64,000 nucleotides of DNA, from positions 1 to 64,000 of the forward strand of contig DASYHQ010000055.1 of assembly GCA_035998445.1 (NCBI GenBank), in the 5' to 3' direction. Within the stretch, counting starts at the first letter, position 1. Each line of letters opens with the position of its first letter. Below the pieces are notes generated by a model. The model made no database searches. It worked only from the letters and a program-made list of their open reading frames with translations, and was not told the origin of the DNA. This stretch comes from Tepidisphaeraceae bacterium. GTDB taxonomy: Bacteria; Planctomycetota; Phycisphaerae; Tepidisphaerales; Tepidisphaeraceae. The translations under genes were made by a program, and so were the position numbers. This document shows, piece by piece, positions 4,453 through 52,966 of this stretch.

Positions 4453-4607
4453 GTCGATACTGTAAGCAGGGCCCGCTGCGTTAGCAATCACCCCGTCATT
4501 TTTGCATACCCAATCTCCCGCGAGTGCGTTCGATATGAGTGAGACTGAAGCAACCCGCAATTTTCGCCGATAACGATTGTAGCGTACGCACCGGCAAGGA
4601 ATTGGTT

Positions 4608-6059
4608 ATGGGCGCATGTCTACTCTCAAGCACGCTCCGTCAACTGCGGGACAAGTCACTTCGTTGGCAGTTGGTGGGCCTATGCATGACCGGCACGGCC
4701 GCCTGCACGGTGGCCGCTGGCGTTGCGCTGAACTGGGCGCGCTCGCCGGGCGAAGGGACGGGGATCGAACTTCTGCACACGCGGGTCTTCCTGCTGATGC
4801 TCTCGCTGGGTGGCATCTGCGCGATCGCCGTCGCGATCGTCGCGGGCAAGATGCTTCGGCCACTTCACCAGATCCGCCAATCCATGTTAAACGTGATGGC
4901 CGGCCAGTACGACGTCGCGCCCAAGATCGCCCCCTTCGGGCGCGAGATGGTTCAGCTGGACGACGCGTTCCGCCAGATGGTCGGCTCGCTGCGCGATAAG
5001 CACGCCGTGGGCGACGACGCCAAGCTGGTGCTGGCCGCCCGCACGCAAACGGTCGATCGGTTGCTGGAGTTCTCACAGACGATCCAAGGCGCCGGCCGAC
5101 CGGACCAGGTCTTCCAAACGCTGTCGTACTTCCTGCAGCAGGAGCTTTCACTGGCGGGGCTCATGGTGCTGGCGGTCGAGCCGGGCGCCACGCCGTCCAC
5201 GCAGGTGAAGGCTTCGTACCCTACCGACCTGAACGTCTCAGAACGCATCATCGCCGACATCGATTCGACCGTCTGCCCCTGCCTGCGGCAGAACCTACCC
5301 CGGTTGTTCGCGTGCGAGAAGTCGCCCATCCGCTGCGCGATCGACAGCGTCCTGGCGCTGCCCCCGGCGCACCCGGCGTACTGCATTCCGTTCAACATCC
5401 GCAAGAGCCAGTGCGTCGCCCATATGTTGCTGCCGATCGGGCAGACGTGGACGGAGGACCGCAGGCAGCTGGCACAGACGTACATCAACACCGCCCATTC
5501 GGCGCTCGTGTCGCTCAACCTGCTGGCGGAAGCGGAAAAGCAGAGCATGACGGACGTGCTGACCGGCCTGTACAACCGCCGGTCGATGGAGAGCCTGCTG
5601 GAGCGCGAGGTCGCGTTGGCCGAGCGGCACCAGCACACGCTGTCGATCGTGATGATCGACATGGACAAGTTCAAGGAAGTGAACGACACGCACGGCCACG
5701 CCGCCGGCGACTACATGCTGAAGTCGTTCGCCGACTGCGTCCGCATCACGCTGCGCAAGACGGATCTCGCCTTCCGTTACGGCGGTGACGAGTTCTGCAT
5801 CGCCCTACCGCAGACCCCGATCGAACAGGCCCAGCAGGTCGTGCAGAAGCTACGGCAGGCATACATGTCGGTCGACTTCAGCGACGCGATCGCCAAGCTT
5901 GAACACCAGCCCACCCTCAGCATCGGCGTCGCCGAGCGGGCCAAACCGTCGATCCTGACCCTGCAAGCCCTGTTGGCTGCTGCCGACACGGCGCTGTACG
6001 ACGCGAAGAACAACAACCGCAACTGCATCAAGCTCTACACGCCGCCCAAAGCCGCGTGA
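4608..6059 (+). CDS. Membrane GGDEF diguanylate cyclase
   Basis: About 483 residues from the ATG at 4608, chosen because AAGGA lies 7 bp upstream; an in-frame ATG at 4539 would add 23 residues. Two membrane segments (about 18-38 and 55-76) are followed by a HAMP-like linker. A GAF-like region of about 150 residues contains several cysteines (CPCLRQNLPRLFAC). The C-terminal GGDEF domain has an intact active site RYGGDEF near residue 390 and an inhibitory I-site RKTD five residues before it. It should therefore make c-di-GMP with product feedback. The cysteine-rich sensor suggests metal, haem or redox input, but that is inference. A PilZ protein at 10.7-11.1 kb is a possible effector. Confidence 0.92.
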   Translation: MGACLLSSTLRQLRDKSLRWQLVGLCMTGTAACTVAAGVALNWARSPGEGTGIELLHTRVFLLMLSLGGICAIAVAIVAGKMLRPLHQIRQSMLNVMAGQYDVAPKIAPFGREMVQLDDAFRQMVGSLRDKHAVGDDAKLVLAARTQTVDRLLEFSQTIQGAGRPDQVFQTLSYFLQQELSLAGLMVLAVEPGATPSTQVKASYPTDLNVSERIIADIDSTVCPCLRQNLPRLFACEKSPIRCAIDSVLALPPAHPAYCIPFNIRKSQCVAHMLLPIGQTWTEDRRQLAQTYINTAHSALVSLNLLAEAEKQSMTDVLTGLYNRRSMESLLEREVALAERHQHTLSIVMIDMDKFKEVNDTHGHAAGDYMLKSFADCVRITLRKTDLAFRYGGDEFCIALPQTPIEQAQQVVQKLRQAYMSVDFSDAIAKLEHQPTLSIGVAERAKPSILTLQALLAAADTALYDAKNNNRNCIKLYTPPKAA

Positions 6060-6075
6060 GATCCGACGAGACATT

Positions 6076-6707
6076 CTTCTGTAGGACAGGCATTCCTGCC
6101 TGTCTCTCCCTCCGTCTTCTTTATTCTGTGGCACAGGCATTCTTGCATATGTCTCTTCTGTCTTTGCCATTCTCGGCGGCACCGACATTCTTGCATGCCA
6201 ATCTTTATGCGTTGCGCTTCCACAAATGCAAAAGAGACGCGAAGTCGCGAAGGCGCGAAGCCCGACGCGAAGGAAGACGGAGAGAGTAACGCGAAACGGT
6301 ATGGCGACGGCGGTCTGGGTAAGGCAAAACGCGATTTCGTGCACCATTGTGCACCATTTTGCACCATCGCGTGATGGCAACGGGGATTCACGACGTCACG
6401 CACGTCAGCTATTCGGTTGTCAAAGAGCACGCTATCCATCTCTACGCCCGCGCTGCGCAGTTGAGGGGGTTCTGGCGCAACGCTCTTCGGATTTCTTCGT
6501 GTCCTCCTTCGTGTCCTTCGCACCTTCGTGGCTCCCCGCGTTCGATCGCGGCTCCGCCGCGTGGCAGACACGAATGTCCGCCCCACCAATTGGAAAGACA
6601 GGATACAGAAGAGACACAGGCAAGAATGCCTGTGCCACAGAATATAGAATACGGGGGGAGAAGCGGACGGGGGGAGGAGACAGGCAGGAATGCCTGTCCT
6701 ACAGAAG
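6076..6707. repeat. Long MITE-like element with nested terminal inverted repeats (copy A)
   Basis: A 632-bp non-coding block. Its ends are inverted copies of CTTCTGTAGGACAGGCATTC, each itself a hairpin. Inside lies a second inverted pair built on CTGTGGCACAGGCATTCTTG, and inside that a weaker third pair around ACATTCTTG / CGAATGTCCG. The core has stretches such as GCGAAGGCGCGAAG and three successive GTGCACCAT-like words. The same core occurs reverse-complemented at 52293-52918, and a short version at 16212-16503. Open frames through it (translating as GRNACPTE) are by-products of the repeat. No transposase is visible. Confidence 0.8.
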
Positions 6708-6753
6708 ATCAATGCACACAGACTACAACAAGGCGCAGCCGGATCACGCAAGA

Positions 6754-7398
6754 TCAATCGTCACCACTGCGGCCGCCGAGCACAGCGTCCACTACGGGCT
6801 TGATCGCCTCATAGTCAAACCCCCGCCGCTGGAGCATGCCGACGAGGCGGCGCTTGGCGACGATCGGGTCCAGCCGCGATAGTCGCGCAGCCTGCTTCTC
6901 CGCCAGCGCGCGGGCCTCGGCGACGGGGTCGGTAGCATCGTAGACCTCGTCCAATGCCGCCTTGGCGACGCTGCCCTTCACGCCGGCCCGCATCAGTTCC
7001 TGCATCGCGCGGCGTTTGCCGTGGTGCTTGTATTGAGCCGTCGTCGTGGCCTTCGATTTGGCGAAACGCGCATCGTCGATGTAGTTCAGCCGTTCGAGGT
7101 CAGTCAGCACCCCTTCAATGACGGCGTCGCCGTACTCGTGCCGGCCTAGCTTCTTCTTCAGTTCCGCCCGGCTGTGCAACCGCCCTTCCAGCAGGCGGAT
7201 GGCGCGATCAAAGCATTCCTGCCGAACTTCCCCCCGCTCGATCTCCGCCACCTGCTCGGCCGACAGCGACAGCCCCTCGCGCAGCCGAAACGTCGCGACC
7301 ACGTTCAGGTTCACGCCGAACGCGAACGCGCCATCCAGATAGATGTTCCGCCGATTCTGGCGGCGCTTTTGTTCGGAGATTTGGGTGATGACGGGCAT
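6754..7398 (-). CDS. recX: RecX family regulator of RecA
   Basis: A 214-residue protein with the three-helix tandem repeats of RecX: RAIRLLEGRLHSRAELKKKL, then GVLTDLERLNYIDDARFAK, then a third repeat (KRRLVGMLQRRGFDYEAIK). RecX binds RecA filaments and limits their extension. The N-terminal 50 residues (KRRQNRRNIYLDGAFAFGV) match the extra N-terminal region of many RecX proteins. recA is not in the window. It ends 46 bp from repeat copy A and starts 26 bp after the stop of the PIN toxin on the same strand, so it may be read from the same transcript. Confidence 0.88.
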   Translation of the reverse strand: MPVITQISEQKRRQNRRNIYLDGAFAFGVNLNVVATFRLREGLSLSAEQVAEIERGEVRQECFDRAIRLLEGRLHSRAELKKKLGRHEYGDAVIEGVLTDLERLNYIDDARFAKSKATTTAQYKHHGKRRAMQELMRAGVKGSVAKAALDEVYDATDPVAEARALAEKQAARLSRLDPIVAKRRLVGMLQRRGFDYEAIKPVVDAVLGGRSGDD

Positions 7399-16160: not shown

Positions 16161-16211
16161 ACATAACGGGCACCGCCGAAGCGAACCTCCCGCGGTGTAA
16201 AGGTTCCACCT

Positions 16212-16503
16212 CTTCTGTAGGACAGGCATTCCTGCCTGTCTCTCCCCCCGTCTGCTTCTCCCCCGTACTCGCGAGATCAAAATCCCAAGCCCCAATGCCA
16301 AACAAATGACCAATCACCGAATCCCAATCGGAAAGACTCCCTGCTCTGTGTTTGCCTCTGTGCTCTCTGTGTCCTCTGTGGTTCAACCGCTTCTTCGCGC
16401 CACCTATGCGTCTCCTTTGCGGCCTTCGCGTCCAGCCCTTCCGTGAATACGGGGGGAGAGGCGGACAGGGGGGAGACAGGCAGGAATGCCTGTCCTACAG
16501 AAG
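16212..16503. repeat. Short copy of the MITE-like element (copy B)
   Basis: A 292-bp block with the same outer inverted ends as copies A and C (CTTCTGTAGGACAGGCATTC at left, its complement at right) and the GGGGGGAGAGGCGGACAGGGGG tail region in degraded form. Its core differs: TCTGTGTCCTCTGTGGTTCA and GGCCTTCGCGTCC words, of the type of CACGAAG repeats. This indicates that the ends can enclose different interiors. Confidence 0.75.
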
Positions 16504-16536
16504 AGGAGTCTCGTGCGTTAATCACGCGATTTCGGT

Positions 16537-52175: not shown

Positions 52176-52292
52176 GTGCGCGGGAGGCGACAGAGTTTCG
52201 TCCGCCAGCCCAAGGTTCTCGATCCCCAAACTGACCGATCGTCCGCATCCTGTGATTCTACGGGACCGCCACCCCTGCGCCCCGCCGTCGCT

Positions 52293-52918
52293 CTTCTGTA
52301 GGACAGGCATTCCTGCCTGTCTTTCCCCCGTCTGCTTCTCCCCCCGTATTCTTTTTTCTTCTGTGGCACAGGCATTCTTGCCTGTGTCTCTTTCTGTCTC
52401 TCCTTTTCGTGGGACGGACATTCTTGTCCGCCAAGCCGCGGAGCCGCGACGGTGAAGAGGCAGAGACGCGAAGGCGCGAAGGACACGAAGGCGGACGCGA
52501 AGAAATGCGGATGGTGTTGCGCCGAACCCGGGTCTTCTGCGCAGCGCATCCGTGGAGATGGATAGCGTGTTCTTTGACAACCGAATAGCCGACGCGCGTT
52601 ACATGTCGCACCCCATTCTCCCCACCCGATGTTGCACAATGGTGCATAATGGTGCCCGGTTTCGCGTTTTGCCTTACCCAAACCGCCGTCATGACACGGG
52701 GGCCCCTGATTTTTTCGCCCTACTTCGCGTCCTGCTTCGCGCCTTCGCGTCTCTGTTGCATTTATGAAAGCGCAACGCGTAAAGAGAAACAGACAAGAAT
52801 GTCCATCCCGCCGGGAAAGGGAAGGCAGAAGAGACACAGGCAAGAATGCCTTTGGCACGGAATACGGGGGAGAGGAAGACTGGGGGAGAGACAGGCAGGA
52901 ATGCCTGTCCTACAGAAG
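52293..52918. repeat. Long MITE-like element (copy C), inverted relative to copy A
   Basis: A 626-bp block with the same outer ends and second-level ends as copy A. The core is the reverse complement of copy A's: GAGATGGATAGCGTGTTCTT at about 52553 corresponds to the complement of 6420-6445, and TTGCCTTACCCAAACCGCCG at about 52670 to the complement of 6310-6330. GTGCACCAT-like words recur here as TGGTGCATAATGGTGC. No transposase is visible. Confidence 0.8.
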
Positions 52919-52966
52919 AGGATAGGAGAAAGAGAAGCGCCGCCGCGCGATACTCGGTCGCGAGAG

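Follow-up and report, generated by a model that had tools for sequence, protein, structure and literature searches.

A REP-bounded, REPIN-like element with a private core, probably spread in trans by a thiE-linked RAYT

In the window, by which we mean the whole 64-kb stretch of DNA analysed here, a GGDEF-type gene and a RecX-like gene converge on a gap that holds a repeated element at 6076-6707. GTAG-tagged hairpins stand at both of its limits (level A), with two more inverted levels of REP sequences within (B and C), and two other copies lie in the same window. The features are as follows.

4539..6059, + strand: GGDEF-type gene, 3′ end towards the element (convergent gap); name read from the sequence
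6075..6104, + strand: left outer REP (level A): TCTTCT, GTAG and hairpin GACAGGCATTCCTGCCTGTC; 193 such 15-mers genome-wide
6128..6152, + strand: left middle REP (level B), GTGGCACAGGCATTC, here with a degenerate hairpin
6176..6199, + strand: left inner REP (level C), here diverged; consensus GTGGGACGGACATTCTTGTCTGTC (family D1)
6238..6273, + strand: left GCGAAG module (level D), half of an inverted repeat
6308..6373, no strand: conserved core block 1, three TGCACCATT repeats; pairwise identity 0.87, 37 copies
6410..6458, no strand: conserved core block 2, TTGTCAAAGAGCACGCTATCCATCTCT; pairwise identity 0.894, 68 genomic copies
6475..6482, no strand: conserved core block 3, GCGCAACG; pairwise identity 0.935, 8 columns
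6492..6530, − strand: right D module
6563..6587, − strand: right inner REP (level C)
6613..6638, − strand: right middle REP (level B), hairpin intact
6679..6708, − strand: right outer REP (level A), with CTAC/AGAAGA
6754..7398, − strand: RecX-like gene, converging on the element; name read from the sequence
16211..16504, no strand: short copy, with only A ends and another interior between them
52292..52919, − strand: second long copy, 78% identical

The outer ends, CTTCTGTAGGACAGGCATTCCTGCCTGTC and its complement, are 92% complementary across 39 nt, and their 8-bp hairpin folds at −8.8 kcal/mol (z −5.5), which bears out the first-pass annotation's description of hairpin ends. The second inverted pair and the weaker third pair that it described are also present: the second, GTGGCACAGGCATTC, is degenerate and folds weakly on the left and is intact on the right, and the third lies at 6176-6199 and 6563-6587. 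Units in the left arm are spaced near-regularly, at 47 and 48 bases, and the whole strand folds with a z of −14.4 against 20 shuffles. The two long copies and one short copy reported for the 64 kb were confirmed (6076-6707, 52293-52918 and ~16211-16504); all three lie in convergent gaps, and a 17-mer search finds nine outer ends in the window against 0.08 expected. What the earlier reading missed are a fourth, innermost inverted level (the GCGAAG module), the conserved core inside it, the ~190 outer ends genome-wide and a transposase inside the same ends.

Across the genome (5.84 Mb in 64 contigs, completeness 95.5%; all copy counts come from this one assembly), A-type 15-mers occur 193 times at up to one mismatch, B-type ends 103 times and core block 2 68 times at up to two mismatches, with 0, 1 and 0 hits for the respective reversed-pattern controls. 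The genome contains at least 68 scattered passenger copies of ~600 bases. In the regions examined there are 114 element places and 57 closed pairs of facing A ends, 128-844 bp long and mostly 450-760 bp. The window's core is common to 41 of the 43 full-length closed elements, the other two being a transposase-bearing unit and one copy without the core; since the short copy encloses yet another interior, the A ends carry several interiors. A ends stand beside all 58 distinct core hits (on both sides of 43, one side of 15 and neither side of none), in a scoring that was not selected on A, although most regions examined had been chosen around A ends.

The copies are old. Among 41 aligned copies, chosen by A ends with at most two mismatches so that conservation of A therein is biased upward, median identity is 69% and the closest pair reaches 86%. 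In their consensus, the core blocks retain 87-93% pairwise identity, compared with 42-60% for the spacers. Beyond its own lineage, the core pattern has 10 single matches to unrelated taxa in a contig collection, about the chance number (~7.5, estimated from pattern length and collection size; the scan may have omitted own-genome records), so that the core looks private to the lineage. A search of 40 relatives did not recover the whole composite. For co-evolution between the arms of a single copy, the 8 usable pairs give no support (p 0.81).

The first-pass annotation saw no transposase linked to the element, which proves wrong at the scale of the genome. Of its eight Y1_Tnp loci, one (C64:27715-28146) sits between identical outer A ends, TCTTCT flank included. 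It scores 76.4 bits against NCBIfam REP_Tyr_transpos, just under the cut-off of 80, among solved structures it matches E. coli TnpA-REP best (4er8, E 0.004), and both the HUH motif (HVH) and the Tyr are intact, which on sequence grounds identify it as a RAYT/TnpA-REP relative. It is the only RAYT unit with A ends and carries A alone, without B, C or the core. The RAYT has no obvious start of its own; one frame of 553 aa runs from ThiD2-ThiE through the REP into the RAYT. G003, G013 and G022 show this arrangement too, again at the thiE end (579-594 aa), so that a RAYT lies in frame at the ThiD2-ThiE C terminus in four genera, where the REP is translated as well (VGQAFLPV / VGQTFLS) (L127 on C64 of the present genome, G000; L128 in G022; L129 in G013; L130 in G003). 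In other relatives, of which G001 belongs to the genus of G022, the thiE end is plain and lacks both REP and RAYT. REP type and RAYT co-vary in these relatives: the inverted REPs on either side of the thiE-RAYTs in G003, G013 and G022 belong to the type that the genome in question has in abundance (A for G003, GTGGGGCAGACATTC for G013 and G022), and the A-type REP is found in only 2 of 61 genomes, both of which have the thiE-RAYT. Two further RAYTs of the present genome (L021, L027) have their own, different GTAG hairpins (GTAGGGTGGGATTTATCCCACC; GTAGGGTCCGCTGG...), and several REP systems thus coexist in it.

Sequences flanking the GTAG end in TCTTCT (85-96% per position, CT 93-96%), and target duplications around closed elements are no commoner than in shuffles. 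HUH/Y1 elements produce no target duplications. Their absence, which had been put forward together with shared synteny as grounds for rejecting mobility, does not count as a refutation here. E. coli TnpA-REP cuts at CT beside GTAG hairpins (PMC8266576); the CT|GTAG flanks together with the missing duplications are a good fit to cleavage of this kind, which would then operate here as well.

Relatives also throw light on the nested levels. B types are abundant in G020, G047 and G055 and C-like types in G001, G010 and G013, which indicates that A, B and C are three related REP variants. The D module is a separate one, as A is missing from 17 of its 45 sites within contiguous stretches of the own genome, and in relatives it forms an inverted repeat of its own, without REPs. 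REP arrays in relatives are ordered ++..--, i.e. with tandem same-direction units in each arm, and G003 has 48-base REP units. Every one of the 104 arms scored in the genome has A on the outer side of B, and the other copies space their units less evenly than the window's left arm does. The clade also has a second type of doll-like repeat: L045 (G001:C295, ~1500-1900) is a nested inverted repeat in which GCGAAG and CACAGATG units surround a GTGGCATGGGCG hairpin, and has no A, B or C type REPs.

How, then, did such an element arise? Levels that are nested and inverted, of which B and C types stand on their own in relatives, could suggest that the element grew like a Russian doll, inserting repeatedly into itself, as had been proposed. 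We consider this improbable, given the identical level order in every arm, the near-regular 47/48 spacing and the tandem REPs per arm in relatives; moreover, no copy turned up in which a partial nest had landed elsewhere. The doll-like look would be better explained if the arms had grown in tandem around a passenger. Still less probable is a structured non-coding RNA family, the other role suggested for the nested layout. The strong folding (z −14) and the conserved blocks would agree with it, but the folding is that of the inverted repeat itself, no Rfam covariance model matches the element, the covariation term in the core is −0.11 with a double change at only 1 of 35 predicted pairs, and no promoter match was found. 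A structured-RNA role is accordingly unsupported, and the core does not prove to be a known ncRNA, which would have spoken against a mobile element. The label MITE-like holds in outline, for a non-autonomous element with inverted ends. A classic MITE of a DDE-transposase insertion sequence would likewise have terminal inverted repeats, many copies and no need of an ORF, but target duplications do not exceed shuffles and the GTAG-tagged hairpin ends are shared with a Y1/HUH gene, which leaves this origin scarcely credible.

A role for the host is harder to set aside. By a simple, codon-based and crude gene caller, convergent gaps hold 40 of the 57 closed elements, tandem gaps 13 and divergent gaps 2 (2 unclear), against a background of 63 convergent, 187 tandem and 59 divergent gaps (309). 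For long copies the figure is 35 of 42 (background 63 of 309; Fisher p ~1e-15), for short copies 5 of 13 (p 0.003 against the long ones). This bias agrees in kind with the known 3′-end preference of REPs (PMC3733652) but is extreme. Purging of other sites and a function of the elements in convergent gaps would both account for it. Domestication, with selection keeping the element, wherever it came from, as a two-sided site for termination, RNA ends or supercoiling where genes converge, would explain both the position, most pronounced in long copies, and the conservation of blocks over spacers. However, selection against harmful insertions elsewhere yields the same bias, T-tract terminators do not exceed shuffles (2 found, 1.2 expected) and the flanking sequence is not notably structured, so that both the terminator and the flank-structure idea are weak, covariation is lacking and the gene calls are crude. 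We thus regard domestication as possible, yet well short of probable. Somewhat more doubtful still is the fuller version, in which the host took over the core-bearing nested elements as standard spacers of convergent genes, their ends and core blocks being maintained by selection, and the RAYT would persist solely as an in-frame tail on the thiamine enzyme ThiD2-ThiE.

In our judgement, the explanation with good odds of being right is a REP-bounded, non-autonomous passenger spread in trans by the thiE-linked RAYT. Each arm would be a short array in which the REP units all point the same way (A outermost, then B and C), the two arms being inverted to each other and enclosing the GCGAAG inverted module and the private core. 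The thiE-linked RAYT, an HUH/Y1 single-strand transposase, would recognise the outer GTAG-tagged A hairpins and cut next to CT, so that the whole ~600-nt unit could spread in trans without target duplication; copies would then have built up, or been spared, chiefly where neighbouring genes converge. We infer that the thiE-RAYT, cleaving ssDNA at CT|GTAG, moved the elements and that this movement is mostly over. The closest of the 41 copies are only 86% identical, which leaves recent movement unsupported; the earlier proposal of mobility in trans or in the past is upheld, probably with the emphasis on the past. Given the age of the elements, the present RAYT may not be the one that spread them.

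We would like to place the element among known systems. A GTAG tetranucleotide, or a variant of it, 5′ of a short hairpin is typical of REPs, and an inverted REP pair as the repeated unit, in high copy and extragenic, with a RAYT in the same genome flanked by the same REP, is typical of REPINs; our element shows all of these (the family score of its RAYT being just below the NCBIfam cut-off). The REPINs described in Pseudomonas are ~70-110 bp long, with an inverted REP pair and a matching RAYT (PMC3116915, PMC8049555). Like them, our element is non-autonomous and extragenic, has an inverted REP pair as its unit and makes no target duplication. Unlike them, it is ~600 bp long, has two or three levels of REPs in each arm, encloses a GCGAAG module and a long conserved core, and shows a strong convergent-gap bias; with closed pairs of 128-844 bp, it is too long for a standard REPIN, hence 'REPIN-like'. 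GTAG-tagged REPs and REPtrons have been described, planctomycetes included (PMC3733652), and share with our system the tag, the hairpin, a RAYT flanked by the same REPs, the 3′-end bias and REPs translated in frame inside genes; here, however, the RAYT frame is fused to ThiD2-ThiE and the REP arms surround a large passenger core. TIRtrons and TIR repeat families likewise combine a Y1 gene with long terminal inverted repeats and a repeat family (PMC3733652), but their TIRs are REP-free, whereas the ends here are canonical GTAG REPs. With IS200/IS605 the element would share HUH/Y1 chemistry in addition to hairpin ends; it differs in that its ends are inverted copies of one hairpin and that the passenger itself lacks tnpA and tnpB. 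What is unusual is the private core with strongly conserved blocks, and the concentration of long copies in convergent gaps.

In-frame RAYT-like domains were also seen in other proteins. A DinG-like helicase contains one in several genera (L025:1-2592 of the own genome, L137, L139, L140), apparently at the same place and with REP-like translated peptides on its flanks. Valyl-tRNA synthetase contains one in two families of the class (L131 in G051, L135 in G025), at the same position and with the host protein continuing in frame afterwards; Pfam Y1_Tnp is reported in L131 only. Further insertions lie in Eco57I-type methylase and DUF1156-type proteins (L134 in G047, L136 in G009, L141 in G004). 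Literature searches of partial coverage found no paper describing such fusions. Those with ThiE, DinG and valyl-tRNA synthetase suggest that a transposase can persist without a promoter of its own.

REPINs are usually short; here a REP/RAYT system has a long passenger at at least 68 sites, and its likely transposase is identified. If the host-spacer reading were true, the elements would be two-sided transcription ends or topology sites. With diverged spacers, conserved blocks and convergent gaps side by side, the long-standing question of whether a REP is a parasite or useful becomes directly testable in one genome.
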